Shown here: positions 5,430 to 34,392 of the stretch, piece by piece
How positions within the stretch are numbered: position 1 is the first letter of the stretch
How the letters are laid out: each line of letters begins with the position of its first letter
Source of the DNA: a virus
DNA length: 34,921 bases
IMG/VR virus record: IMGVR_UViG_3300042939_000321
Coordinates: 1 to 34,921 of that record
Strand: one strand, 5' to 3'
The notes under the pieces: generated by a model
The model's input: only the letters and a program-made list of their open reading frames with translations
Database searches by the model: none
Told to the model about the DNA's origin: nothing
Position numbers and translations under genes: made by a program

Positions 5430-5963
5430 ATGAACCAAGAAAACTGGGTAACAACTTGCTTATCTGGATACAGAGTTAACCCCCCTAGGGGCTACCACTT
5501 TGAAAACGCGCATTACCCTTTATCTAAAAAATTGGGTGGCACAAAAACCATACGCCTGTGGTACCCTGATCATATTGTCCAAGGGTGTTTACAAACTCTA
5601 GAGAATAATTACCCTTGTGTAGATACCCGGAAAGCAGACCGAGAACGGAGCATATTAAGAGACGTATATCCGGAGTATCTTGATCTTTACGACCAAGCAA
5701 CTTTAATATGTAGACGTCACGCAAACAACAAACAAGCCCTGTCAGGACATAGGGAAAAAGCCCGGACAAGTGCCACACAAAAAAGAAAGAGGCCAGTTTT
5801 TATAACGTGCCCAAAGGGAGAAATATATTTATTTGAAAGCTGCACAGAAGCTGGCCGAAAGTTCAACTTGCATTTGGGAGAGTTAAGCAAGTGTTGCCAC
5901 GGAAAGATTAAGCATGTCAAGGGGTACTCCGCTTATTTTGCGGATTTACCTGACGCATTCTAA
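5430..5963 (+). CDS. Homing-endonuclease-type ORF with NUMOD1-like DNA-binding C-terminus (177 aa)
   Basis: The last ~45 residues (KGEIYLFESCTEAGRKFNLH, then LSKCCHGKIKHVKGYSAYF) match the pattern of NUMOD1. NUMOD1 is a helix-turn-helix-like module found at the C-termini of HNH and GIY-YIG homing endonucleases, where it helps recognise the target site. The N-terminal ~110 residues have Cys, His and Arg-rich stretches (ICRRHANNK) but no catalytic motif I can name, so nuclease activity is unproven. ATG 5430 is preferred over an upstream in-frame TTG at 5409, which lies at the -10 box. The gene stands directly ahead of the DNA polymerase gene, a classic neighbourhood for homing nucleases. It may be an active nuclease, a decayed one, or a DNA-binding protein. 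Confidence 0.6.
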   Translation: MNQENWVTTCLSGYRVNPPRGYHFENAHYPLSKKLGGTKTIRLWYPDHIVQGCLQTLENNYPCVDTRKADRERSILRDVYPEYLDLYDQATLICRRHANNKQALSGHREKARTSATQKRKRPVFITCPKGEIYLFESCTEAGRKFNLHLGELSKCCHGKIKHVKGYSAYFADLPDAF

Positions 5964-5971
5964 GCTATACT
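5945..5971 (+). promoter_or_regulatory. Putative sigma70-like promoter for the DNA polymerase
   Basis: TTTACC at 5945-5950, a 15-base spacer, and TATACT at 5966-5971, 30 bases ahead of the ATG at 6001. The box overlaps the end of the preceding ORF. Confidence 0.45.
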
Positions 5972-6000
5972 ACTTACATGAGAACAAAACTCAACGTCCG

Positions 6001-8766
6001 ATGACTGCACGATTTACAGAGCTTGGATACCCCGTCCTCGATGGCAATATGCATTCGAGGATTTTTGGTATTCAGAAACCCAAGGCAATGAGTCGCCTGG
6101 CGAAGCAGAGAGCAGAGAGTCTCCTTGGGGAATTTGACATCCCGATCCCAGTCGATTACCCCGAGCATCTATACGACGGTCCGCTACCTCTACCTAACCT
6201 GCAAGGTAACACTCTAACGGAACACTTTGAGAATATTGCCGAGAAGCAAGTCGGCGAATACAAGAAACTCGCTGACGAGTTTGCAAAGTGCAAGTTGCCT
6301 CTTTTGCCCCCGCCCGAGGTTTTCAAGTTTGAACCCGGATGGACACGATACGAATGGGTGGAGAATGAGGCCGCCGGTGGGTGGTACACTGAGTCTGTCA
6401 AGTGTCCCGAGGAAGACGTCTTTACTTTTGACTGTGAGACTTTTGTGCACGGCGGTGCTTTTCCGATTATTGGAACCGCTCTCAGTGCGAAAGCTGTCTA
6501 CATCTGGCTCGCCTCTGAACTAATCGACCCCTCGATTCCGGAGGAATCGTGGGACCAGCACAACCTGATCCCAATCGGTGAGAATCGCTTCGTTATCGGT
6601 CATAATATCAGCTACGACCGCGTACGTGCCCGCGAGGGGTACTCACTTAACCGAACCAAACCTGAGAACTTCTACTTTGATACACTATCTGCACACATTG
6701 GCGTTTCTGGTCTTGCCGGTGGTCAGCGCTGGCTATATGTTCTGGCTGGTAAGGACCCTGAGAACCTTACTGAGGAAGAGAAGCGAAAGCTAAGATATGC
6801 GCCGAAATGGCTGGACGAAGGATCCACCAACTCGTTGGTCGCTGTGTATAACTTCCACGTATACGAGGTGAGAAAATATTTCGGCGACGACGCCTTCCAA
6901 CTCGGAAAGGAAGACAAGGCAGTACGTGATATTTTCGTCAAAGCAACTCACCTGAGTCAGATTCGGCAGATGCTGACCGAGGCAGTTGACTACGCCGTCA
7001 AAGACGCCTTCTACACTGCCGAACTTTTCCAAGCACTCTGGCCCAAGTACCTCGTCTCCACCCCGTCTCTCACTGCTCTTTGTGGGCACTACCACTTGAA
7101 TGGTTCTATCATTCCCCTCGTCCCCGACTGGGAGGACTGGATCAAAGGGGTGGAAAAGGTCTTCGAGGACCACAATAACGAGATGACCCAGATCTGTAAG
7201 GACTTGGTGTGGAAAGTCTATGAGGAGTGGGTGGAGTCCGGTCGCGAGGACTCCTTCTGGCGCCGGGACCCGTGGTTGACGCAACTCAACTGGGAAGTTA
7301 AGACCCAGAAGGGCAAGTACGCAGGGGTTCCCGAGTGGGTTCGCCCGTTCGTCAAGGATCCTGACACGCACATTGGAGTCAAGAGCAACCTTTCTCACCT
7401 TCTACTGAAACTGACTTGGGAAGGCTCCCCCATGGTGAATACCCAAGATATGGGTTGGTGCTTCCACAATGAAGACGGAGTGCTTACGAAAATCCCCCAC
7501 CCTAAGGGCGCAGGAGCGAATGTTGGAGGGGTACTATCGAAGGACTTCGTTGACGACATGAAAGTTGGTCGGTTGAACTCCGATCTCCCTGAAGCTAAGC
7601 GGGCACTCGAGATTGCAAACGCGACATCATACTGGACTTCGGTCCGGAAACGAGTCATGGACCGGATCTACCTCCCGGTTTCAAACCCTCACGGTGCGGA
7701 CTCTCTGGTCACTCTCCCTGAAATTCTCTGCCACGGTACCGTCACTCGACGAACTGTGGAGTCGCTCATGGTGACCATGTGCTCCACGAAAAACTGGCGG
7801 ATTGGCACCGAACTCAAGTCCCGTGTGCAAGCACCGGACGGCTGGAAAATCGTTGGTGCTGACTTTGATGGTCAAGAGATGCAAATTGCCTCAATCTACA
7901 GTGACAAGTGGGAAGGCGGTCACGTTGGTTGCTCGCCTTTCGGTTACAACGTGCTGTCGGGATCGAAAGAGGCAGGCACGGATCCGCACTCCGCACTTGC
8001 AAAACTCTGCGGCATTGACCGAGACACGGCCAAGATCGTCGGGTTTGCCGTACTTTACGGTGCGGGGGCTCGTGGCGTCCAGACATACATCCGTCGTAAA
8101 TACCCAGAGAAATCCCCCGAAGAAGTAAAAAACATTGCGTTCAAACTCTTACAAAGCAAGAAAGGAGCGCAACGAGATGGTCTATATGAAGGCGGCTTAG
8201 ACAGCGGCTGCTTTAACTTTATGGAGGAAATTGCGATGAGAACGCGAATCCCCCAGCTACCGTGCCTCGGCACTAAAATCTCGACTGCGATGCGCCCTGC
8301 GGCTGTTGGCGACGATTTTAAGACGGGGCGGGTCAACTGGACAATCCAGTCATCGGGTGCGGAGATTCTCTCGATCATGCTAACCGCTGTGCACTGGCTC
8401 ATTGATGAGTACAAGATTCCAGCTCGTTTCATCCTTAGTATCCATGACGAAATATGGTTCCAAACCCCGGAAAGGTACGCAGAGCAGTTCGCTGTTCTAT
8501 TTCAAATCGCTCACATGTACACTTGGTCTCTATTCCATTCGGCAGTTGATATCCCCGAGTTGCCTCTTTCGCGTGCGTACTTCTCTTCAGTCGCCATCGA
8601 CGATCGCCTTCGGAAATCGCCAAAAGAAAAAACAGTCACTCTCTCTAACCCTGAAGGTGATGAAGAACCCTCAGGGGTAGAGTACTCTATGACTGAACTT
8701 TCCGAAATCGGAGCCATTGACAAACTAACTAACCGCTACACTGCAATCCAAAAAGGTCTTATCTGA
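6001..8766 (+). CDS. Family A DNA polymerase of the mitochondrial polymerase gamma type (921 aa)
   Basis: Replicative polymerase with 3'-5' proofreading. Exonuclease motifs: FDCET (Exo I, D ~144 and E ~146), VIGHNISYDR (Exo II, D ~206) and YAVKDAFYT (Exo III, D ~335). Polymerase motifs: VGADFDGQE (A, D ~620), RDTAKIVGFAVLYG (B, ~673-686) and SIHDE (C, ~814). Compared with human POLG from memory, similarity runs colinearly through the whole chain. Matching pairs are GWTRYE/GWTRYG in the N-terminal extension, NVGGVLSKDF/NVGSPFAKDF, RALEIANATSYW/RALEINKMISFW, GTVTRRTVES/GTITRRAVEP, GTELKSRVQAP/GSELKAMVQAP, GTDPHS/GTDLHS and RVNWTIQSS/RVNWVVQSS. This is much closer to POLG than to the T7 or Pol I pattern. 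At 921 residues it lacks much of the inserted spacer material of the ~1240-residue human enzyme. Motif B has Phe where POLG has Tyr951, which predicts discrimination against dideoxynucleotides. I chose ATG 6001 because it starts right after the -10 box; an in-frame ATG at 5914 lies inside the preceding gene. The stop overlaps the next start (TGATG). Confidence 0.95.
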   Translation: MTARFTELGYPVLDGNMHSRIFGIQKPKAMSRLAKQRAESLLGEFDIPIPVDYPEHLYDGPLPLPNLQGNTLTEHFENIAEKQVGEYKKLADEFAKCKLPLLPPPEVFKFEPGWTRYEWVENEAAGGWYTESVKCPEEDVFTFDCETFVHGGAFPIIGTALSAKAVYIWLASELIDPSIPEESWDQHNLIPIGENRFVIGHNISYDRVRAREGYSLNRTKPENFYFDTLSAHIGVSGLAGGQRWLYVLAGKDPENLTEEEKRKLRYAPKWLDEGSTNSLVAVYNFHVYEVRKYFGDDAFQLGKEDKAVRDIFVKATHLSQIRQMLTEAVDYAVKDAFYTAELFQALWPKYLVSTPSLTALCGHYHLNGSIIPLVPDWEDWIKGVEKVFEDHNNEMTQICKDLVWKVYEEWVESGREDSFWRRDPWLTQLNWEVKTQKGKYAGVPEWVRPFVKDPDTHIGVKSNLSHLLLKLTWEGSPMVNTQDMGWCFHNEDGVLTKIPHPKGAGANVGGVLSKDFVDDMKVGRLNSDLPEAKRALEIANATSYWTSVRKRVMDRIYLPVSNPHGADSLVTLPEILCHGTVTRRTVESLMVTMCSTKNWRIGTELKSRVQAPDGWKIVGADFDGQEMQIASIYSDKWEGGHVGCSPFGYNVLSGSKEAGTDPHSALAKLCGIDRDTAKIVGFAVLYGAGARGVQTYIRRKYPEKSPEEVKNIAFKLLQSKKGAQRDGLYEGGLDSGCFNFMEEIAMRTRIPQLPCLGTKISTAMRPAAVGDDFKTGRVNWTIQSSGAEILSIMLTAVHWLIDEYKIPARFILSIHDEIWFQTPERYAEQFAVLFQIAHMYTWSLFHSAVDIPELPLSRAYFSSVAIDDRLRKSPKEKTVTLSNPEGDEEPSGVEYSMTELSEIGAIDKLTNRYTAIQKGLI

Positions 8767-9181: not shown

Positions 9182-9511
9182 ATGCGCACCATTTCAGACA
9201 ACGAAAACCAAGTGACCACTACATCTAAAAAAGAAAAAACAATGCCTAAACTCGAAACTTTCTCAACTGTCATCAGCGACGGTCGCGAGATTACGATCCG
9301 AGAAATGACCGGTCGTGACTTGGTCTATATGGAGAAAGACCTGACGAAAGCAGGTGACGTGGAGAAAGGCATGAAAATTATTGAGCGCCTTATCGTCGGA
9401 GATGATAAAATCACGTACGACGAGATTCTTGACCTAGGAGTCAAAGACTTTCGAAAGCTCAGTGACCTTGTGGCTAAAGCTAACGGTACGGACGAAGAAG
9501 ACCCAAACTAA
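9182..9511 (+). CDS. Tail assembly chaperone, short form (gpG/gpE-like, 109 aa)
   Basis: Unshifted product of the tail assembly chaperone gene. Phage proteins of this type (lambda gpG, P2 gpE families) bind the tape measure and promote tail-tube polymerisation, and are absent from mature virions. The core begins LETFSTVISDGREITIREM and continues with TGRDLVYMEKDL and ITYDEILDLGVKDFRKLSDL, the usual alpha-helical pattern. Identification rests on this pattern, on the size and above all on the frameshift signal at its 3' end. The ATG at 9182 follows the previous stop by three bases; an in-frame ATG at 9242 (MPKLETF) is an equally plausible start, as the first 20 residues are low complexity. Confidence 0.8.
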   Translation: MRTISDNENQVTTTSKKEKTMPKLETFSTVISDGREITIREMTGRDLVYMEKDLTKAGDVEKGMKIIERLIVGDDKITYDEILDLGVKDFRKLSDLVAKANGTDEEDPN

Positions 9512-9930
9512 CTGTTGAGGACCAGGAAGATTTTACTTATTTAGTTTATCTTCCTGGCGGGCCCACACTTCATTTCAGGGAGGTTACTCCCAAAGATTTT
9601 TATTTCGCTCAAATTCTCCGGCAAACAGAACGAAGTCAACTTGAGTTAATTAGTCGTCTTCTGCTTAACGATAACGTTCTAGATGAAATAACCTCTACTC
9701 AATTTCGTCAGAGTATGAAGTGGGCTGGTGAAACACTTCTTGATCAAACTATCTTAACGGTAGAAAATTGGTTAGAAATTGCTTACCACCTTTGCAAACA
9801 GCGTTGGGATTCTTCAATCGACTGGTTAGAGTCCCAACCGATGAGCAAAATTCAAACAATGATCCAAATCGTAGAGAAACACGCAGAAGAGCAAGAGAAA
9901 GAAATGAAGAAAAAAGCCCGTAAAAAATGA
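9182..9930 (+). CDS. Tail assembly chaperone, -1 frameshifted long form (gpGT/gpE+E'-like, 249 aa)
   Basis: The -1 frame is open from 9484 to the stop at 9928-9930. It has no ATG, GTG or TTG before the internal Met at 9715, so it needs entry by frameshift. Slippage at CCCAAAC (9502-9508), in the correct C CCA AAC phase, joins residue 109 to LTVEDQEDFTYLVYLPGGPT and a 140-residue extension. That extension is helical, Trp-rich in the middle, and Lys/Glu-rich at the end (EEQEKEMKKKARKK). The shared N-terminus with a rarer extended product is the established pattern for tail assembly chaperones of dsDNA phages, where the ratio of the two forms matters for tail assembly. The next gene begins at 9927, overlapping the stop. 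Confidence 0.88.
9502..9557 (+). other. Programmed -1 ribosomal frameshift signal
   Basis: Slippery heptamer CCCAAAC at 9502-9508, in zero-frame phase C CCA AAC and immediately followed by the TAA stop. Thirteen bases downstream comes a perfect 10-bp hairpin: CCAGGAAGAT at 9522-9531, a 16-base loop, and ATCTTCCTGG at 9548-9557. Heptamer, adjacent stop and stimulatory stem together are a canonical arrangement. Confidence 0.9.
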
Positions 9931-10337
9931 TGATTCGCCTTAAAGTTCAAAACCTGGTCCCACTTAACACAAAGTGGTGGAAACCCACAAAAGAAGAATG
10001 GGTGCCAGTTCTTCTTGATGACCACCCGCAATTCTGGAAAAAACAGGTTGATCCAACTTATCAGCATCCATGGGCTCGTTTAACCCCTCGATACGCGAAC
10101 TGGAAGTCTCAAAACTTCCCCGGCCAACCAATTCTTCGGGCAACGGGTCTTATGCAGGATTTAGCCTACATTTACACTCGGGGTAACGTTTTTCTCGTGA
10201 AATCAACTCACTACGGTAAATACCATCAATCGGGGACCTCAAGGATGGCAGCTCGACCCTGGATGGGCGTCCCCGATATTTCGCTCAAGCAGATCGTTCC
10301 GATTGCCTGGCGCAACATACTCTCTCGCAAAAAATGA
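9927..10337 (+). CDS. Tail completion / virion morphogenesis protein (P2 gpS, Mu gpG-like; 136 aa)
   Basis: Resembles the phage virion morphogenesis family (tail completion). The middle reads WARLTPRYANWKSQNFPGQP, then ILRATGLMQDLAYIY, HQSGTSRMAARPWMG and a closing helix. That order (W..LTP.YA..K, ILR.TG.L/M, YA..HQ.G, RP..G) is characteristic of the family, which completes the head-proximal end of the tail before joining. It directly follows the chaperone gene with a four-base overlap and overlaps the next gene by four bases, consistent with a tail-assembly operon. Confidence 0.75.
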   Translation: MMIRLKVQNLVPLNTKWWKPTKEEWVPVLLDDHPQFWKKQVDPTYQHPWARLTPRYANWKSQNFPGQPILRATGLMQDLAYIYTRGNVFLVKSTHYGKYHQSGTSRMAARPWMGVPDISLKQIVPIAWRNILSRKK

Positions 10338-11205: not shown

Positions 11206-14200
11206 ATGGCAACATTTTCTCTCGGGACTTCAGGGGTCACCCCCGGCGCTCCTGGCGTGTATATCAACGAGCAACCCGGAAAGGTTGCTTTCGGAGGTAT
11301 CGCAGATTTTAGTACAGTTTACATGCTAGTGGAAACTGAGGAGGGCGTACCTGTAACTCGGTTCCCCTTCAACACTCCGATCGCAGTTTCCTCGCTGACT
11401 GACTACAAGGAACTGATTCGCATCGGTAACTCAACAGTACCAGAAGATCGTATCCCGCTCCTCAGCTACAACTGCGTCAACGAATTTTTCCAAAACTCAG
11501 TAACCGGTGACCTTCGTGTTGTTCGCGTTGGCACTCCTGACCAGATCGTTGAGGTGGAGTTCTTCCCTTCAGCCACTAAGATCAACAGCACCTCACTGCC
11601 CTCCTCTCTGCAGGCTGGCAACAAAGTGTTCGTACAAATGACTCTTAACGGCCAAAAGCTGGTATCAGGTGACGGTTCCACAGGTTACACCGCAGATGGC
11701 GAGTGGCTTGGCGTCCCCGTAACTATCCCTGTGACTTACGTTGCTGGCGACGAAGCCAACAACCGTAAGATTTCGGCTGCGATTGCTGCTGCTGTGGCCG
11801 AGGCCATCGAGTCTAACCCTGCCATTCGCAGTTCCGTGTATGTACGGAACACTGGTATGGTGAACGATTTAAACCCTGCCAGCAACTCTGAAAACAGTTT
11901 CGTCACGATTGCTTCCACAACCTTCAACGGTAGTGTGTCGGTAATCACCGAGGTTCTGCCCGTTGGCAGCAACTTCGTGTTCATGCAAAATGCCTACGAC
12001 ATCCAAAACGTTGTCGGTGGCAGCGTGACTCTGGAGCGTGTTCCTCAGGACTACACTCAAACCATCGACACTGCGTTTGACGGCGTTCAGGATCAAGGAT
12101 ATCTCATCACTCCTACTGCCTACGCCCAGTTCGACGCCAAGGGTCGTGCCCTCGTCGGCGCTGCTGCTGCTGCACATTGCGAGAACGGTAACTTTAAGTG
12201 GATGGCTCTGGCTGATCCCGGTCCTTACCTGGTCACCGATATCAACGAGTACCAGAGCTACACCCCTCATCAACCTGCCGCAGATCTGGTAACCGGGTTG
12301 AAGTACCTGGTTGACAACGCCATCTACGAGTGGGTGGGTACAGACGTAAGCTACAATAAGCTCGCCTACCAGACTATTGTGTTTGGCGAGTCAGCTCAGA
12401 CCGCTGTTAACGAGTCTGCCAACCTTGTTGCAAACGGTATCCAAGTTGGTCTTCTCGACAACGCTCAGTACACCATTAACGCTGCTCCGACTGCCGTTGA
12501 CGGTGTGTTCCAGCTTGACACTGATCAGTTCTGGCCTGTTACTCTCCCTATTCAGCAAGTCACTCTGACTGGCGCTGGCGTGGGCAATGATTTCACAACT
12601 GTGGACATCCAGGGTGGCGCAACAGGTGTGAACCTCAGCGGCACAGAAGTGTTCGTTGTGGCTCCCCCTTACAACACCACCACTGACTCAGAGTACTCGC
12701 TGAACTACGTGTTCCTGGCTACTACAGCTCAGGATGCTTCTGCAATCTACAACTTCATTGTTCTGCAAGGCGGAACTGCAGAGTGGCTTGCTACGGCACC
12801 TGCCACTCCCCCGAACGGCGCTATCTTTATGACAGCCCCTACGGGTGATACTGCTCTGCTAGCCTACGCCGATCCCTACTGGAATCTGCCGGTTAACATC
12901 AATGGGCAAACATCCAACCTAATTGAGAACATCTCCGGAGCTTCGGCTGGTGTTAATACTCTGCACCTTCCCGGCACACTGCAAAATCCCACTGAGTCCT
13001 ACGCTCTGAACTGGGTTTCTCGCACCATTTATAACCCCGCTGCGGCTGGTTTCATCACCCCTTATAGCGGTGCTCTGGTGACAAGTGGCGCAGCTGTGTT
13101 CAACGTGCCCAATCACGGTCTAATCAGCGGTCAAAAGATCTACTTCACTCAGCCGATTACCGTAACAAACCTGGGAGTAACCACGAACTTTATTAGCTCG
13201 ACCACCAAACTGGTGAGCCGCGCTTATTACGTCCGAGTACTGAGCAGCGGTCAGTTCGTTCTCGCTTCTACGCAATCAAACTATACAAGTGGGTCGTTCA
13301 TGGTTGTGCCCACCGGCACTTTCAGCACCACTCCTACAATCTTCTATTCACAGGTTCTAGGTCGCGGTCTAACCACCACCTCCCCGGTCGAACTCATCAC
13401 TCTTCCGATGGTTCGTGCCCGTAAGTACGAGTTTGACTCCAACAGCATCTTCAATCAGGCTGCAGATGCCTCCGTAGCACCGGCTTTTGCGGCTAATGCC
13501 CCCGGTTCCGCTATTTACCTGAACAACAGCGCCGTGATCCTTGGTAAGGATCAAATCACCCCTTACGGTGAGGACATGAGTGCTCCCAGCCTTTGCAGTT
13601 GGTTGCCTTCCCTAAACCTGGTGAATCCCACCACGTCCCCGGTAACAGGTATCTTCAACGCCTATGCAACTCCCACCGTTGACCAGTTCTTCCAACCTGA
13701 GGCCTACTTCGTCCCCGCGATTGAAGCGATTCTAGTTGGCAGCTACAACGGTGCTGCTGCTGGTACAATTGGTCCTGCTGCGACCCTCGGCGTTAGCGCC
13801 GGTGGTGCCCCCACTCTGTCCAACGGTACTTACAACAACGTCCCTGTGTCAGGTGGTGCTGGCACTGGCCTGACTGCCAACGTTGTGATTTCCGGCGGTG
13901 CTGTCACCTCGGCCACCGTGGCCAATGGTGGCCAAGGCTACTCTTCGGCTGATGTCAACCTGGCCCTGCCTGCTGCCTACGTTGGTGCTACTCTCGACGT
14001 TCTTACTGTCAATAGCGCTTTCGGTTCAGTTGCTGGTCCTCTGACTACCTACGGTACTCAAACCGGACTGGCTATTGGCGACACCGCTGCCCAGCTGAAC
14101 ACCATGCAGTCCCTGCTGGTTGGCACCTACTTTAATGTCACCGGTGCTGGTACAGCTCCCGACGGCGTAACCCCAGTGGTAATCGGCGATCGCGTCGCTC

Positions 14201-15177
14201 TTACCTACGACGGATCCACCTACATCTGGGTGGTTGTTCCCGCAGCAACTTCCGGTGGCGACCTGTCCTCCGTGGGTCAAGTGTGCTACAACGCCCAAGT
14301 CGAGCTGGTCTTCACTCCCGAGCAAGGTGTTCCCACCAACCTCTGGCGTTTTGACGCAATCACCGCTACCGAAATCATTGATGCTGCCCTGCGTGGTGTT
14401 GGATTCGGTGGTGTCCCCCAAGCCGTGTTCGTTGAAGCTGGTATTGACAACGTGAGCCGTCTTCTTGACGACTCCCAGCGTTACGGTAATCCGTTCGGCT
14501 TTATCGCCTACTACGGCCCGTACATCGAGAACGGAGCTGGCCAGTGGATTCCGCCCTCACCCTACGTGACTGGCGTTGCGGTTCGTCGCTACCGCGCTGA
14601 AGGCTATCAGTTCCCGCCTGCTGGTGTCAAGTACCAGCTGCGTGATGCCGTGGCAGCTCAGATTCCGGTTAGCTCGTCTCAGCAGAACCTGCTCAACCCG
14701 AAGGGTTGCAACGTGGTTCGCACTCTGCCTGGCTACCCTGATTTTGCCGTGTTCATCTGGGGCGGTCGCACTCGTCTGCTAAACCCCGACGACGCTCAGC
14801 AGAAACTGTACCAGTTCGTTAACACTCGCGTCATCCTTAACGTGGTGTATGGCTCGCTGCGTACTGCGTTCGACAGCCAGATCTTCAATGTTATCGACGG
14901 TTTCAACGTGATCTTTAACCAGATCGTTCTGATTGGTAACAGCATCCTGAACCAGCTGTATGTTCGTGGCGCTCTGTTTGGTGCTCGGCCTGCAGATGCC
15001 TTCCAGGTTATCTGCGACGGTCGCGTTAACCTGCCTGAAGACCTCGAGAACGGTATCGTCAACGCCAAGGTGTTCGTAACTCCGGTGCCTACCCTCGAGC
15101 GTATCCAGATCGACCTCATTCGTGTGGCCATTGGTCAGATGCAAAAGGAGCTTGATATCCAGGGTCTAGGTCAGTAA
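11206..15177 (+). CDS. Tail sheath protein, very long (1323 aa)
   Basis: Contractile sheath subunit. The N-terminus has the family signature PGAPGVYINEQPGK. The C-terminal ~300 residues hold the conserved sheath core: VEAGIDNVSRLLDD, GNPFGFIAYYGPYI, the NPKGCNVVRTLPGYPDFAVF region, WGGRTRL, NTRVILNVVYGSL, YVRGALFG, AFQVICDGRVN and a last strand LERIQIDLIRVA. The family is usually about 400-700 residues, so roughly half of this chain is inserted material. It includes several beta-rich domains and one Gly-rich repeat near residues 860-930 (ISGGAVTSATVANGGQGY) that is shared with two other virion proteins here. Codons are markedly enriched in CTG (Leu), AAC and GGT/GGC, as in the capsid gene, consistent with high expression. 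A 111-base leader precedes the ATG. Confidence 0.92.
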   Translation: MATFSLGTSGVTPGAPGVYINEQPGKVAFGGIADFSTVYMLVETEEGVPVTRFPFNTPIAVSSLTDYKELIRIGNSTVPEDRIPLLSYNCVNEFFQNSVTGDLRVVRVGTPDQIVEVEFFPSATKINSTSLPSSLQAGNKVFVQMTLNGQKLVSGDGSTGYTADGEWLGVPVTIPVTYVAGDEANNRKISAAIAAAVAEAIESNPAIRSSVYVRNTGMVNDLNPASNSENSFVTIASTTFNGSVSVITEVLPVGSNFVFMQNAYDIQNVVGGSVTLERVPQDYTQTIDTAFDGVQDQGYLITPTAYAQFDAKGRALVGAAAAAHCENGNFKWMALADPGPYLVTDINEYQSYTPHQPAADLVTGLKYLVDNAIYEWVGTDVSYNKLAYQTIVFGESAQTAVNESANLVANGIQVGLLDNAQYTINAAPTAVDGVFQLDTDQFWPVTLPIQQVTLTGAGVGNDFTTVDIQGGATGVNLSGTEVFVVAPPYNTTTDSEYSLNYVFLATTAQDASAIYNFIVLQGGTAEWLATAPATPPNGAIFMTAPTGDTALLAYADPYWNLPVNINGQTSNLIENISGASAGVNTLHLPGTLQNPTESYALNWVSRTIYNPAAAGFITPYSGALVTSGAAVFNVPNHGLISGQKIYFTQPITVTNLGVTTNFISSTTKLVSRAYYVRVLSSGQFVLASTQSNYTSGSFMVVPTGTFSTTPTIFYSQVLGRGLTTTSPVELITLPMVRARKYEFDSNSIFNQAADASVAPAFAANAPGSAIYLNNSAVILGKDQITPYGEDMSAPSLCSWLPSLNLVNPTTSPVTGIFNAYATPTVDQFFQPEAYFVPAIEAILVGSYNGAAAGTIGPAATLGVSAGGAPTLSNGTYNNVPVSGGAGTGLTANVVISGGAVTSATVANGGQGYSSADVNLALPAAYVGATLDVLTVNSAFGSVAGPLTTYGTQTGLAIGDTAAQLNTMQSLLVGTYFNVTGAGTAPDGVTPVVIGDRVALTYDGSTYIWVVVPAATSGGDLSSVGQVCYNAQVELVFTPEQGVPTNLWRFDAITATEIIDAALRGVGFGGVPQAVFVEAGIDNVSRLLDDSQRYGNPFGFIAYYGPYIENGAGQWIPPSPYVTGVAVRRYRAEGYQFPPAGVKYQLRDAVAAQIPVSSSQQNLLNPKGCNVVRTLPGYPDFAVFIWGGRTRLLNPDDAQQKLYQFVNTRVILNVVYGSLRTAFDSQIFNVIDGFNVIFNQIVLIGNSILNQLYVRGALFGARPADAFQVICDGRVNLPEDLENGIVNAKVFVTPVPTLERIQIDLIRVAIGQMQKELDIQGLGQ

Positions 15178-15917: not shown

Positions 15918-16493
15918 GTGATTACCTACGCTGCGATAAATCTAACCAACAAGAAGTTCTACGTGGGGAGCGCTCAGGATTTCGTAAGGCGATGCCGAGG
16001 ACACCACGGCACCAAAAACGAGAATCCGCTGTTTCATCGAGCACTACATAAGAACCCTGAAAACTTCTATTGGATTGCGGGTGAAGACGACGGGTTGGAC
16101 ACTCGTGACGAGGAGCAGTATTACCTGGACTTCTATCACGGCACAATGTGGTGTGTGAATCACAATCCGAATGCTTCTGAGCCACCGTCACAAGCTGGAA
16201 CAAAATGGTGGAACAACGGTATCGAACAGGTGAAAGTTTTCGAGTGCCCCGGGGAAGGATGGGTTATGGGGCGCCTGGGCTGCTGGTGGAACAATGGTGC
16301 TGAAAATCGTTTTGGAGTGGAGTCTCCCCCCGGTGAGTGGGTTACTGGAAGAATTCAGATACCTCGAACTGCGGAGAGGCAGGGTATTTCGGGCAAAGGC
16401 AATGTGTGGTGGAATAACGGTATGACTTCAACCCGGGCTAAAACGTGCCCCGGCGAAGGTTGGGTTCGCGGTCGCATCAAAAGGAGTAAGTAA
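15918..16493 (+). CDS. GIY-YIG family endonuclease with three C-terminal WWNNG repeats (191 aa)
   Basis: Free-standing homing-type nuclease. The first ~90 residues have the GIY-YIG layout: ITYAAINLTNKKFYVGSAQD (the GIY-like and YVG strands), then FVRRCRGHHG with the conserved Arg. FYW and DEEQYYLDFYHG contain the expected catalytic Glu, and CVNHNPNASEPP closes the fold. The remaining ~100 residues hold three repeats of W-W-N-N-G followed after 8-12 residues by (C)PGEGWV.GR (near residues 97, 122 and 163). This is presumably a DNA-recognition module. The start is GTG. It lies between the baseplate gp25 gene and the portal gene, breaking an otherwise coupled gene series. The Shine-Dalgarno sequence of the portal gene (AAGGAG) lies inside its last codons. 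Confidence 0.85.
   Translation: MITYAAINLTNKKFYVGSAQDFVRRCRGHHGTKNENPLFHRALHKNPENFYWIAGEDDGLDTRDEEQYYLDFYHGTMWCVNHNPNASEPPSQAGTKWWNNGIEQVKVFECPGEGWVMGRLGCWWNNGAENRFGVESPPGEWVTGRIQIPRTAERQGISGKGNVWWNNGMTSTRAKTCPGEGWVRGRIKRSK
16481..16486 (+). promoter_or_regulatory. Strong Shine-Dalgarno of the portal gene
   Basis: AAGGAG, seven bases ahead of the ATG at 16494, inside the 3' end of the GIY-YIG ORF. It is one of the few strong Shine-Dalgarno sequences in the window and fixes the portal start. Confidence 0.75.
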
Positions 16494-18100: not shown

Positions 18101-20752
18101 GTGTTCACAAAAAAGATTCATGTGTTCAAGGCGGGGGACCAAACTTCTGCCCAAGGTGTTCAGAGGCACTTCTCTGAAAAGGATCTTGAGCAGGTAGTGA
18201 AAAACTACGACCCCTCCATCCACGAAGCTCCCCTTGTTATCGGGCATGCCGGTGATAACGACAGCACTCCTGCCTACGGCTGGATCAAAGGGTTCAGCCA
18301 GCAAGGCGGAAATCTTTATGCTGACGTTGCTTTTACCGATACTGCTAGAGATTTAGTAAAAGAAGGTCATTACCGCAAGGTCTCGATCTCCTTTTACTCG
18401 CCTGACAGCGCAATAAACCCTCACAAGGGGAAGTGGAGTGCTCGCCACCTTGCTCTGCTGGGGGCCTCTCCCCCTGCAGTGAAAGGTTTAGAACCCTTCT
18501 CTTTCTCGGAAGCAGAGGGAGTCTACGACTTCGCCGTTTCTCTCGCTCCTTCCGACATCTTCGATGAGGACCTTGGGCCCACCTTGATTGTGGAAAAAAG
18601 CCCTCTCGAAATGCTCCGCGAGAAACTCGATGCCGTCCGAGAGGATGTGTCGAGTGCGGTCAAAGACCTGCAAGAGAACCAACAATCGCAAACAACTGAA
18701 AACACGCAAGAAGTTGCCGGGTCTTCGGCAACGAGTCAAGGGGACGCCGCTCAAATGGCAAACCCTGACGCTCCCCAATTCAAAGAAACCAGCAAACACA
18801 CGGGTCGCGAAGGCACTGAAATCTCTCAGCAGACGGCTGACCTCGAAACTCAATTTCCGGAAGAGGAATTTATGGACCAAGGAAAAATCAGCCGGAAGCA
18901 CGCCAAAGGTGCCCACGGCCAAGTTATGCAAGTCGTAGAGAATGTCTACGAAGAAGCTGACGAGAAAAAACTCGATGAAAAACACGGCGAAATGCCCGAA
19001 GCCTTCAAGAAAAAGGCCGAAGAAATGAAAGCCAAAACGAAAGGAAAAGGCATGGAAGTCAAGCATGCCGAAGACGACATGACCGACTCAGGCGTGATGA
19101 AACGTCACGGTGGCGACGGTGGCCCTGGCCCAGCTGACCACGCTGAAGACCCTACTGGCCGCTACGAAACCGCTCGCTCTGCCGATAACGGTTATGTCGA
19201 CCGCATGAAGACCGGTAAGTCCGACGCGGACGGCAATGTCGGTCGTATGAAGACCGCCAAATCCAGTGAGCAAGATCGCGATCGCATGCACACTGCTGAA
19301 AATGGTGAGCAAGACGAAGATCGTATGCACACCGCCAAGGACTCCGAAATGTCCTCTGACGGTGCAGAGCGCTGGGCTGGCCAAGCTGACAACTACGAGC
19401 GTGTCAACAACATGGACCAGTACGACGTAGACGCTAAGAGCTACGGTGTCAACGCCCCGAAAGTTTCAGACGGTAACGACCCTTATGGTCGTGATGACGG
19501 CGCTACCAAGATGCCCACTGAGTCGGAAGAAATGCCTGATGACGAGATCTTCGCTGTGAAGACCGTTAATGTCATGTCCGACGGATCTATGCGTGTTATC
19601 CGTCAAAAGTCCTCCGATGCCCGTGCCAAATCGGTTGGCACCCACAACCTGCTGTATGCTGAGCCCCAAGCTGACGAAATGACCGGCGAAGACGGTGTTA
19701 CAACCGCCCGCAAGTCAATGAAGGGTAGCAAGATGGTTGAGCACGCGGAGTATGAGACAGGCGACATCTCTGGCGAAGCCAACCTGGAAACCCTTCGCGA
19801 AGAAATCGGCGATGGCAAGAAGTCCAAGAATCGCCAGCTGACCCCTGGCGCTATGGACGACACTGACACTGCAGGTCAGATTGTTGGACCTGATGGAGCC
19901 TATGCTGAGTCCTACAAGGGTGAGCCCAAGGCTAAGTCCAAACAGCTGACCCCTGGCGCTATGGATAGTGTCGATGACGAGAACCAGGTAACTGGCCCCT
20001 CGGGTGTGTTCAAGGAAGCCTCTCTTGAGAGCCTTCGTGAAAACATTGGTGACGGCAAGAAGTCCAAGGCCAAGCAACTAACCCCAGGCGCTATGGGCAC
20101 CGTTAAGGACCCTGCTGAGATTTCGAAGAAATCTGGCGGTGTCTACGCGGAAGAGCACGGTGAGAAGAAAGACCCCTACACCAAGACTGGATTCGGATCT
20201 ACCTACGAAGAGGGTGAAGGCGACGACGGAGTTGATGAAGGAGAGGAGGACTACAATGAGCTGTCTGCCGACCACTCCAGCTGCGGCATGGACTACGGCA
20301 TGGGCTCAATGGGCCAATCCAAAGCCATGGGGTTCCCTCAGCAAATGTACGAAGAGCTGCAGTCTCTGAAGCACAAATACGCCGAACTCGAGCGTCGCCA
20401 CGCTGAAGAGAAGATGATGCATCGTCGTCGTCAGATGGCCAACTTCGTCGAGGCCCTGTACACCGAAGGTCGCCTGACCGACGGCATCATTCCCGAGCAA
20501 GAGCTGATTAGCTACTGCGAAGGTCTGGAGTTTGGCACCCTGGAGTTTAGCGAAGGCGAAACTGCTGCCACTAAACTGCTGGGCCTCTTGAGCAAACTTC
20601 CTCCGATGGTATCGTTTGGGGAAGTTGCAGGTGGGACTTTCCAATATTCCGAGGAAGATTTGGATCCCCACGCAAAAGCACTCCAGATGGTTGAAGCTTC
20701 TGAGGGCAAGATGGATTACGTCGAAGCTCTGAAGAAGGCGATGTTCTCCTGA
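18101..20752 (+). CDS. Prohead protease / scaffold fusion, Mu gpI-like (883 aa)
   Basis: The N-terminal ~150 residues match Mu gpI-type prohead proteases: RHFSEKDLEQVVKNYDPS, EAPLVIGHAGDND, PAYGWIKGF, GHYRKVSISFY and ARHLALLGASPPAVKGL. The C-terminal ~150 residues are scaffold-like: a coiled coil (MYEELQSLKHKYAELERRHA), then NFVEALYTEGRLTDGIIPEQ and LLSKLPPMVSFGEVAG. Between them lie ~550 residues of charged, low-complexity, probably disordered sequence. This includes four RMK/HTA repeats (about 19198-19336) and three QLTPGAM repeats (about 19840-20095). Family members are usually 350-450 residues, so the linker is a large expansion. The protein should line the prohead interior, cleave itself and other head proteins, and leave before packaging. 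GTG start. Confidence 0.88.
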   Translation: MFTKKIHVFKAGDQTSAQGVQRHFSEKDLEQVVKNYDPSIHEAPLVIGHAGDNDSTPAYGWIKGFSQQGGNLYADVAFTDTARDLVKEGHYRKVSISFYSPDSAINPHKGKWSARHLALLGASPPAVKGLEPFSFSEAEGVYDFAVSLAPSDIFDEDLGPTLIVEKSPLEMLREKLDAVREDVSSAVKDLQENQQSQTTENTQEVAGSSATSQGDAAQMANPDAPQFKETSKHTGREGTEISQQTADLETQFPEEEFMDQGKISRKHAKGAHGQVMQVVENVYEEADEKKLDEKHGEMPEAFKKKAEEMKAKTKGKGMEVKHAEDDMTDSGVMKRHGGDGGPGPADHAEDPTGRYETARSADNGYVDRMKTGKSDADGNVGRMKTAKSSEQDRDRMHTAENGEQDEDRMHTAKDSEMSSDGAERWAGQADNYERVNNMDQYDVDAKSYGVNAPKVSDGNDPYGRDDGATKMPTESEEMPDDEIFAVKTVNVMSDGSMRVIRQKSSDARAKSVGTHNLLYAEPQADEMTGEDGVTTARKSMKGSKMVEHAEYETGDISGEANLETLREEIGDGKKSKNRQLTPGAMDDTDTAGQIVGPDGAYAESYKGEPKAKSKQLTPGAMDSVDDENQVTGPSGVFKEASLESLRENIGDGKKSKAKQLTPGAMGTVKDPAEISKKSGGVYAEEHGEKKDPYTKTGFGSTYEEGEGDDGVDEGEEDYNELSADHSSCGMDYGMGSMGQSKAMGFPQQMYEELQSLKHKYAELERRHAEEKMMHRRRQMANFVEALYTEGRLTDGIIPEQELISYCEGLEFGTLEFSEGETAATKLLGLLSKLPPMVSFGEVAGGTFQYSEEDLDPHAKALQMVEASEGKMDYVEALKKAMFS

Positions 20753-23253: not shown

Positions 23254-23730
23254 ATGGCTATTCTCCGTCCGTTAACAAAAGCTCAATACGAAGTGAGCTT
23301 CACCGCGCTCTCCAATGCTGGAGCGCCCGCCGCGACTTTTGTTTCGGTTTTTACTCAGTTCAGCGGAATCAATGATTCCTCAGATAGCAGCACCTACGCT
23401 AACGGCACAGGCAACCGCCTGTACCACATTGTGGGACCTCGTACCGCCGACAACATCACGTTGACCGCACCGTACGACCCTACTATCTTTAAGTCCCTCG
23501 AGCAGTTTTGGCTGGATTACAACTGTAATCCGATCACTGTAACTGTGACCCCGACCTCTTGCGACGGTAGCTACCAGCAAGCATTCTCTGGTTTCGCAAC
23601 CACAAGTGGCCAGTACATCTGCTACGAGTGCCAGTTTGTTTCGATCACGACTGCTGACGTTGACCGTGAGAGCGGCGATGTTCAGACTATCGAAATTGAA
23701 CTAACGGTAAACTACTGGGAAAGAACGTAA
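23254..23730 (+). CDS. Tail tube protein (158 aa)
   Basis: Subunit of the inner tail tube. At 158 residues and predicted mostly beta it fits the gp19 / FII family. It has SAQ-like strands at the N-terminus (RPLTKAQYEVSFTALSNAGA), a GINDSSDSSTYANGTG loop, NRLYHIVGPRTADNITLTAP, and a C-terminal beta region ending in IELTVNYWE. Tube and sheath genes are normally neighbours, but here the tube lies 8 kb downstream of the sheath, after the capsid gene. AGAGG ahead of the ATG gives a reasonable ribosome site. A strong terminator follows. Confidence 0.75.
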   Translation: MAILRPLTKAQYEVSFTALSNAGAPAATFVSVFTQFSGINDSSDSSTYANGTGNRLYHIVGPRTADNITLTAPYDPTIFKSLEQFWLDYNCNPITVTVTPTSCDGSYQQAFSGFATTSGQYICYECQFVSITTADVDRESGDVQTIEIELTVNYWERT

Positions 23731-33644: not shown

Positions 33645-33907
33645 TGGCAACACCGACTACTTACAGTCTGACTTATGACGCACCTTGCGATGTAGAGGCG
33701 GGGTGCGGTGATGCCCCCTGCGGAGGGAAACCCGAGTTTATCCCTCGCCCTCAAGTTTTTTGTAAGGACGTTAATGTCCTAGGGAGCGAAACGGTGCAAG
33801 GAGATCTGTTTGTTATTCCGGATCAGATTTTTGTAGGAGGTGCAAGTTACATTCCTCAGGAAGTTGTAGCCACAAACGGAACTTTCATCTGCTTAGCGAG
33901 GGCCTAA
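33641..33907 (+). CDS. Small Cys-rich virion-associated hypothetical protein (88 aa)
   Basis: Not recognised. It has a Cys/Gly-rich N-terminal half (CDVEAGCGDAPCGGKPEF) followed by a beta stretch (VNVLGSETVQGDLFVIPDQI). The size and four cysteines invite comparison with spike-tip proteins, but the conserved motifs of the PAAR family are not visible. Its ATG overlaps the spike gene stop and its TAA overlaps the next ATG, so it belongs to the same coupled set. Confidence 0.6.
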   Translation: MMATPTTYSLTYDAPCDVEAGCGDAPCGGKPEFIPRPQVFCKDVNVLGSETVQGDLFVIPDQIFVGGASYIPQEVVATNGTFICLARA

Positions 33908-34392
33908 TGGCAATTCGTCGTCCCAGCATCTCATCGCCCGAGTGGCTATTTCAAGATTTTCTCTACCAGGCTGCCGATGCGCCGGGCGGTTCAGATTTGC
34001 GCTACGTACAGGTGAAGTGGGACGGTGAGATTTACACAAGAGTCTCTCAAACCTACGATTACAGTAATCCCCCGTTCGTAGGTTCAGAGCAACGAGGGGG
34101 TAGCATTGTTGGGCAGATTGATTATGAGGTTAATGCTTCTACGCGCCTCGTCACGATTTACGCTTGGAATACTAACTGGCGAGACGAATGGCCCCTGAGG
34201 TTGGCAGTAAATTACCTGAGAGAATGCTTGTATCCGAGTGTAAAGGGGTATGTAATTCGCGTTGTTGGCGATCAAGTTTACAACCAGGCAGGCGAAGCCA
34301 TTGAGGTTGCTGGCAAGGACCCTTACGCATTCTGGGTATCCGAACAATTTTTTCCAATATCTAATCGCCCAAACGACTATTTGCTAAGGTAA
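33907..34392 (+). CDS. Hypothetical baseplate-region protein (161 aa)
   Basis: Not recognised. Mixed alpha/beta with a conserved-looking core (LVTIYAWNTNWRDEWPLRLA, then VNYLRECLYPSVKGYVIRVV). It follows the Cys-rich small gene with a one-base overlap (TAATG), and a GGGTAAAA element starts three bases after its stop. Its location suggests a baseplate or hub component of unknown type. Confidence 0.65.
   Translation: MAIRRPSISSPEWLFQDFLYQAADAPGGSDLRYVQVKWDGEIYTRVSQTYDYSNPPFVGSEQRGGSIVGQIDYEVNASTRLVTIYAWNTNWRDEWPLRLAVNYLRECLYPSVKGYVIRVVGDQVYNQAGEAIEVAGKDPYAFWVSEQFFPISNRPNDYLLR

Follow-up and report, generated by a model that had tools for sequence, protein, structure and literature searches.

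A programmed -1 ribosomal frameshift at the heptamer CCCAAAC, helped by a downstream hairpin, very probably gives rise to a long form, TAC-NC, of the tail assembly chaperone encoded in a 34,921-base virus record (IMG/VR IMGVR_UViG_3300042939_000321; the window, that is, the whole stretch of DNA that was analysed), which carries head and contractile-tail genes. A preliminary description of the window had proposed this reading, and the heptamer, the adjacent stop and the open -1 frame, followed through 79/79 non-redundant family members, support it. What the sequences show directly is how the gene is laid out, that relatives conserve this layout, that the -1 frame is coding, and that a hairpin occupies a set position.

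Organization of the Frameshift Site

The 0-frame ORF (9182..9511, + strand) encodes the short form TAC-N, a gpG/gpE-like tail assembly chaperone of 109 aa plus stop, and its end reads GAC CCA AAC TAA. The slippery heptamer C CCA AAC (9502..9508, +) lies in X XXY YYZ phase with this frame, and the stop TAA (9509..9511, +) stands immediately 3' of it. No stop interrupts the -1 frame between 9484 and 9927, a stretch of 148 codons in total and 140 counted from the junction, and the -1-frame extension (9508..9930, +; stop at 9928-9930) comprises 140 aa beginning L-T-V-E-D-Q. In the predicted frameshift fusion TAC-NC (join(9182..9508, 9508..9930), +; translation of 249 aa), base 9508 is read twice. 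Scanning for ATG, GTG and TTG past the heptamer, we find the first start codon of the -1 frame at ATG 9715, which lies 69 codons inside the conserved -1 domain. The in-phase CCCAAAC at 9502-9508, the TAA directly behind it, and a -1 frame open for more than 400 bases without a start codon before 9715 had all been claimed beforehand, and all are found. The site has the features expected of the XXXYYYZ type, namely an in-phase heptamer followed by a conserved long -1 ORF without a start at the junction.

The window's genes contain 49 in-phase XXXYYYZ heptamers, among which only CCCAAAC at 9502-9508 lies no more than 20 codons from its own stop and leads into a long open -1 frame; at the other four near-stop heptamers, the -1 frame stays open for 1, 8, 10 and 11 codons, versus 140 here. 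ORF 33907-34392 also carries an in-phase CCCAAAC, at 34368-34374 and five codons short of its stop; as its -1 frame closes after 8 codons, this one was rejected as a chance occurrence.

Sequence Constraint in Relatives

Scans of viral contigs yielded 88 distinct heptamer-bearing sequences, including the window and the isolate S-CBWM1, and removal of near copies left 79 non-redundant members; among cellular genome contigs, no relatives were found. CCCAAA is invariant in 79/79 members, while the seventh base of the heptamer (Z) is mostly C (72 members; A 5, G 2), changing several times at scattered places in the -1-domain tree with CCCAAA constant throughout. The 0-frame stop is the very next codon in 78/79 members (TAA 55, TGA 23); in the remaining one, L122, a single codon separates it from the heptamer. 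The residue before the proline differs among members (D, G, S, A, F, N, P), with the last base of its codon always C, and CCA is chosen for the proline in 79/79 cases at the heptamer versus 27% of the Pro codons elsewhere in these genes. Given this constant C and the constant use of CCA, it is the nucleotides, not the peptide, that are under selection.

The -1 frame is without a stop in 79/79 members over 390 nt. Stops per 201 nt average 5.1 in the 0 frame, 3.3 in the +1 frame, and zero in the -1 frame. A stop in the -1 frame of a relative had been named in advance as evidence against the frameshift, and none was encountered; conservation of the heptamer in related phages, also put forward as a check, held in every member together with the stop and the open -1 frame. 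Over the first 102 nt past the heptamer, substitutions among close relatives at -1 codon positions 1/2/3 number 786/568/2376, these being pairwise counts that are not independent. This third-position bias begins at the junction itself, upstream of any start codon of the window. Sequence comparison indicates coding selection on both frames, with translation of the -1 frame from the junction onward. The first -1 residues (L-x-V-E-D-x-E-D-F-x-Y) are among the most conserved, with residue 1 conserved, and the AlphaFold model of the -1 domain, predicted from an alignment of the window and IMG/VR loci only, is a confident domain from the first junction residues on (mean pLDDT 91). At the junction, the -1 frame reads CTA, ATA or GTA in 60/88 sequences (before de-duplication); therefore, an ordinary start codon cannot explain the -1 ORF.

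A single ORF split by an indel, whether through sequencing or assembly error or in a decayed gene, would look alike, since it too would shift the reading frame within two conserved adjoining genes. We regard its probability as negligible, for the layout recurs in 79 non-redundant sequences from many metagenomes, including the isolate genome of S-CBWM1, and both frames bear the marks of coding selection; the conservation of the layout refutes sequencing error.

RNA Structure Downstream of the Heptamer

A predicted hairpin with a 16-nt loop (9522..9557, +) begins 13 nt after the heptamer, its arms CCAGGAAGAT (9522-9531) and ATCTTCCTGG (9548-9557) being perfectly complementary over 10 bp. Stability was evaluated against a null in which synonymous codons are permuted within the -1 ORF, each sequence being compared with its own shuffles. 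For the window, the fold of the segment 10-60 nt downstream gives a z of about -3.1, a stability reached by 0/100 synonymous-codon shuffles. Across the family, stability beyond that of the shuffles forms a sharp peak at +10 to +60 (mean z -1.84 for 57 sequences, -1.57 for 79), versus about -0.9 to +0.3 in windows, upstream or downstream, that do not overlap this interval; z is above -1 in 44% of the 79 members. The downstream stimulatory RNA structure of a frameshift site is thus found here as an excess of stability over synonymous shuffles.

The perfect 10-bp stem of the preliminary description is present in the window, but only its position is shared: the arms of the relatives have other sequences, and we rejected the exact stem as a conserved element. 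RNAalifold on 20 close relatives gives a GGAC/GTCC outer helix in common, with essentially nil covariation for one shared structure (two-sided changes in 1/7 pairs). A hairpin at +10 to +60 appears to be selected while its sequence turns over, the support being statistical and not proof of one structure. In a control of 13 sequences from the S-TIM5 clade, described below, the mean z is -0.83 versus -1.57, weaker yet not flat, so the excess was discarded as a signature of frameshifting only.

RNA polymerase slippage, a transcriptional rather than ribosomal frameshift, can yield an identical fused product. It usually needs longer A or T runs, whereas the runs here are only CCC and AAA, followed by a variable Z base, and the placement of the stop and hairpin in codon phase fits slippage by the ribosome, which makes the transcriptional route highly improbable.

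Chaperone Identity and Likely Domain Duplication

The identity of the 0-frame product as a tail assembly chaperone, part of the preliminary description, is supported by Pfam PF10109 Phage_TAC_7, which matches this product in 27/28 members (E<=1e-3, best 2e-6); the window's own product scores 24.3 bits, 0.7 bit below the curated cutoff of 25. In a Foldseek search with the 0-frame AlphaFold model, which is of moderate quality (pLDDT 70), the top PDB match and best solved fold is the HK97 chaperone 2ob9 (prob 0.99, E 0.019), and the second is YqbN 3klu (E 0.13). These predicted-fold matches are singly weak and agree with the Phage_TAC_7 sequence match. A PDB sequence search with the 0-frame and -1 profiles returned no matches. 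We infer a chaperone function for the 0-frame product from these sequence relationships.

The 0-frame and -1 domains likely, though not as an established fact, arose by tandem duplication. In profile comparison, the 0-frame and -1 domains match each other with a score of 34.9 (E 1.9e-5; maximum of 200 column shuffles, 20.6) along the stretch TFSTVISDGREITIREMTGRDL versus TYLVYLPGGPTLHFREVTPKDF, and the 0-frame profile matches the -1 domain of the S-TIM5 clade with a score of 41.1 (E 1.5e-6; shuffle maximum 18.5). The predicted secondary structures of the two domains appear compatible. Because Foldseek with the -1 model gave nothing usable and no link to chaperones, it is the profile comparison that argues for duplication; the N and C parts of S-TIM5, compared directly, do not match each other.

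Separate Overlapping ORFs in the S-TIM5 Clade

The heptamer is missing from a distant sister clade, made up of cyanophage S-TIM5 and relatives of it from metagenomes (13 representatives). The S-TIM5 ORF pair AEZ65665/AEZ65664 is homologous to both halves of the window gene (E 7e-16 for the -1 part, and a score of 29.5 versus a shuffle maximum of 18.2 for the 0-frame part). In this clade, the two ORFs overlap, the ATG of the second falling within the last bases of the first (ATGAGTGA or a similar sequence). A Shine-Dalgarno-like AGG or AGGA stands just upstream of the overlapping ATG, and a stop ends the -1 frame two codons before this ATG. The clade forms one well-supported side of the -1-domain tree, which is unrooted and does not give the direction of change; from these sequences, one way of expressing the gene pair seems to have given way to another between the window clade and the S-TIM5 clade. 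Loss of the heptamer with both frames conserved, which had been set down beforehand as an argument against frameshifting, is absent from the window's clade and occurs in the remote S-TIM5 clade. Frameshifting in the clade of the window is not refuted by this loss, for in the S-TIM5 clade the second ORF comes with an ATG and a Shine-Dalgarno-like AGG of its own.

Two separate proteins and no fusion would result if ribosomes stopped at TAA and reinitiated on the -1 ORF by translational coupling. Such reinitiation fits the S-TIM5 overlap with its upstream AGG(A), the ATG provided by CCCAAAATGA in S-CBWM1 (gp79/gp80) and contig L026, where it carries heptamer and ATG together, and the GTG at the junction of L220. 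It has, however, no need of an invariant CCCAAA, S-CBWM1 retains the heptamer with an extreme hairpin, and in the window clade an own start codon or reinitiation was rejected on the missing ATG, GTG or TTG before 9715, well into the conserved domain, and on the CTA, ATA or GTA junction codons of the relatives. We consider reinitiation very unlikely as an account of the window gene and retain the programmed frameshift.

S-CBWM1 and L026 are intermediate in form between the heptamer and overlapping-start versions. GenBank lists S-CBWM1 gp79 and gp80 (L080:3621-4417; MG450654.1 47527-48323) as two hypothetical proteins; judging from the sequence, they are probably one frameshift gene annotated as two. 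The S-CBWM1 downstream hairpin (z about -6) is the most extreme among the 65 sequences first tested, and its high stability favours frameshifting in this phage, where frameshifting, reinitiation or the two together may operate.

Whether the homologous chaperone pair exists in two modes, as a -1 fusion of diverged copies of the same fold and, in S-TIM5, as separate proteins with overlapping starts, we judge to be an even question. If so, tail assembly would not depend on the fusion, and tandem duplication would be the origin of the G and T domains.

A Working Model and Its Precedents

In phage lambda, an abundant short chaperone and a rare -1 fusion (gpG/gpGT) load the tape measure and recruit the tube protein (Levin 1993; Xu 2004; PMC5009743). 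In the model we propose for the window, the majority of ribosomes would read 9182-9511 and stop at TAA, giving the 109-aa TAC-N. A minority, with tRNAs on CCA and AAC, would slip back one base, C CCA AAC re-pairing as CCC AAA; the downstream hairpin would aid slippage, and reading would continue in the -1 frame to 9930, yielding the 249-aa TAC-NC with the junction DPN-LTVEDQ. By analogy with gpG/gpGT, the abundant short form may coat the tape measure while the rare long form recruits tube subunits. Slippage itself, and its efficiency, we infer. Several points count against the frameshift: the stem starts 13 nt past the heptamer, the exact stem is unconserved and covariation is near nil, both ORFs occur in S-TIM5 without the heptamer, the gene position is atypical, and a more shift-prone A-site codon than AAC is known in E. 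coli.

Because C_CCA_AAG is highly shift-prone in E. coli and the haloarchaeal virus HCTV-1 uses G_GGA_AAC for its g-t frameshift (PMC5009743), C_CCA_AAC is by analogy a plausible slippery site. The HCTV-1 site shares the AAC second codon and differs in its first triplet, GGG, and in belonging to an archaeal virus. Lambda gpG/gpGT shares the XXXYYYZ heptamer, but it has GGGAAAG where the window has CCCAAAC with a stop directly behind it, and the window gene further differs in lying away from the tube and tape measure genes and in having a -1 domain that resembles the 0-frame domain. The 0-frame domain matches the same family, PF10109 Phage_TAC_7, as P2 E/E+E' and Mu gp41 (the window, at 24.3, just under the cutoff of 25), and in P2, too, a contractile-tail phage chaperone carries a -1 extension; the slippery sequence differs. 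The S-TIM5 ORFs are homologous and differ in having an overlap with its own start (ATGAGTGA) in place of the heptamer. For T4-like phages, Vladimirov (2022), by its title, reportedly proposes a mechanism other than frameshifting.

A closely similar argument was published in 2025 for Vandenendeviridae, with the motif GTTTTT (PMC12846349). In Vandenendeviridae/Andersonviridae (phage Adele), the -1 extension of TAC-N/TAC-NC is open family-wide and annotated as a separate hypothetical ORF (PMC12846349). The window resembles phage Adele in having a myovirus chaperone gene with a -1 extension that stays open across a family and is annotated separately, and it differs from that group in its motif and in position, the gene there lying directly upstream of the tape measure gene (PMC12846349). 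The library of open-access papers that was searched yielded nothing relevant on CCCAAAC in phage tail frameshifting. The frameshift mechanism itself is known and widely conserved; what seems new relative to the open-access library searched is the family, the CCCAAA-plus-stop signal, the gene position, the probable duplication of the domain, and the existence of two modes of expression. The analysis assigns a function to two ORFs of isolate S-CBWM1 annotated as unrelated hypothetical proteins (gp79/gp80), and it adds a heptamer family, CCCAAA with the stop next to it, which a large group of environmental phages conserves. The frameshift and overlapping-start versions of the gene pair let one ask directly whether a fused chaperone is required for tail assembly or whether a ratio between two proteins is enough.

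Genomic Surroundings

Sheath, baseplate, portal, protease, major head protein and a gp19-like tube are recognised in the window. The chaperone gene sits between a polA-type gene and the neck/sheath cluster: polA, encoding a family A DNA polymerase (5914-8766), lies directly upstream of the chaperone region, and the neck gene (9927-10337) is its neighbour on the other side. In S-CBWM1, polA likewise precedes the tail chaperone region, in the same order as in the window. The tail tube gene (23254-23730) is far away, no tape measure gene was recognised within the window, and the chaperone gene is thus not found at its usual position between the two; this adjacency is the usual arrangement for tail assembly chaperones and is not strictly defining.

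Other genes of the window have features of their own. A DNA gyrase/topoisomerase IV subunit A-like gene is present in this phage at 638-2635, and no B subunit was recognised among the window proteins scanned. The polA product contains an exonuclease domain of the mitochondrial-polymerase-gamma type (PF18136). The putative tail sheath (11206-15177) is very large (1323 aa), the sheath match covering its C-terminal third only and leaving the long N-terminal part unmatched. A Homing/HNH endonuclease-like ORF (15918-16493) is inserted between the baseplate and portal genes, and an 883-aa ORF (18101-20752) matches a head maturation protease at residues 3-324, the rest of which may be a fused scaffold or an unknown domain.
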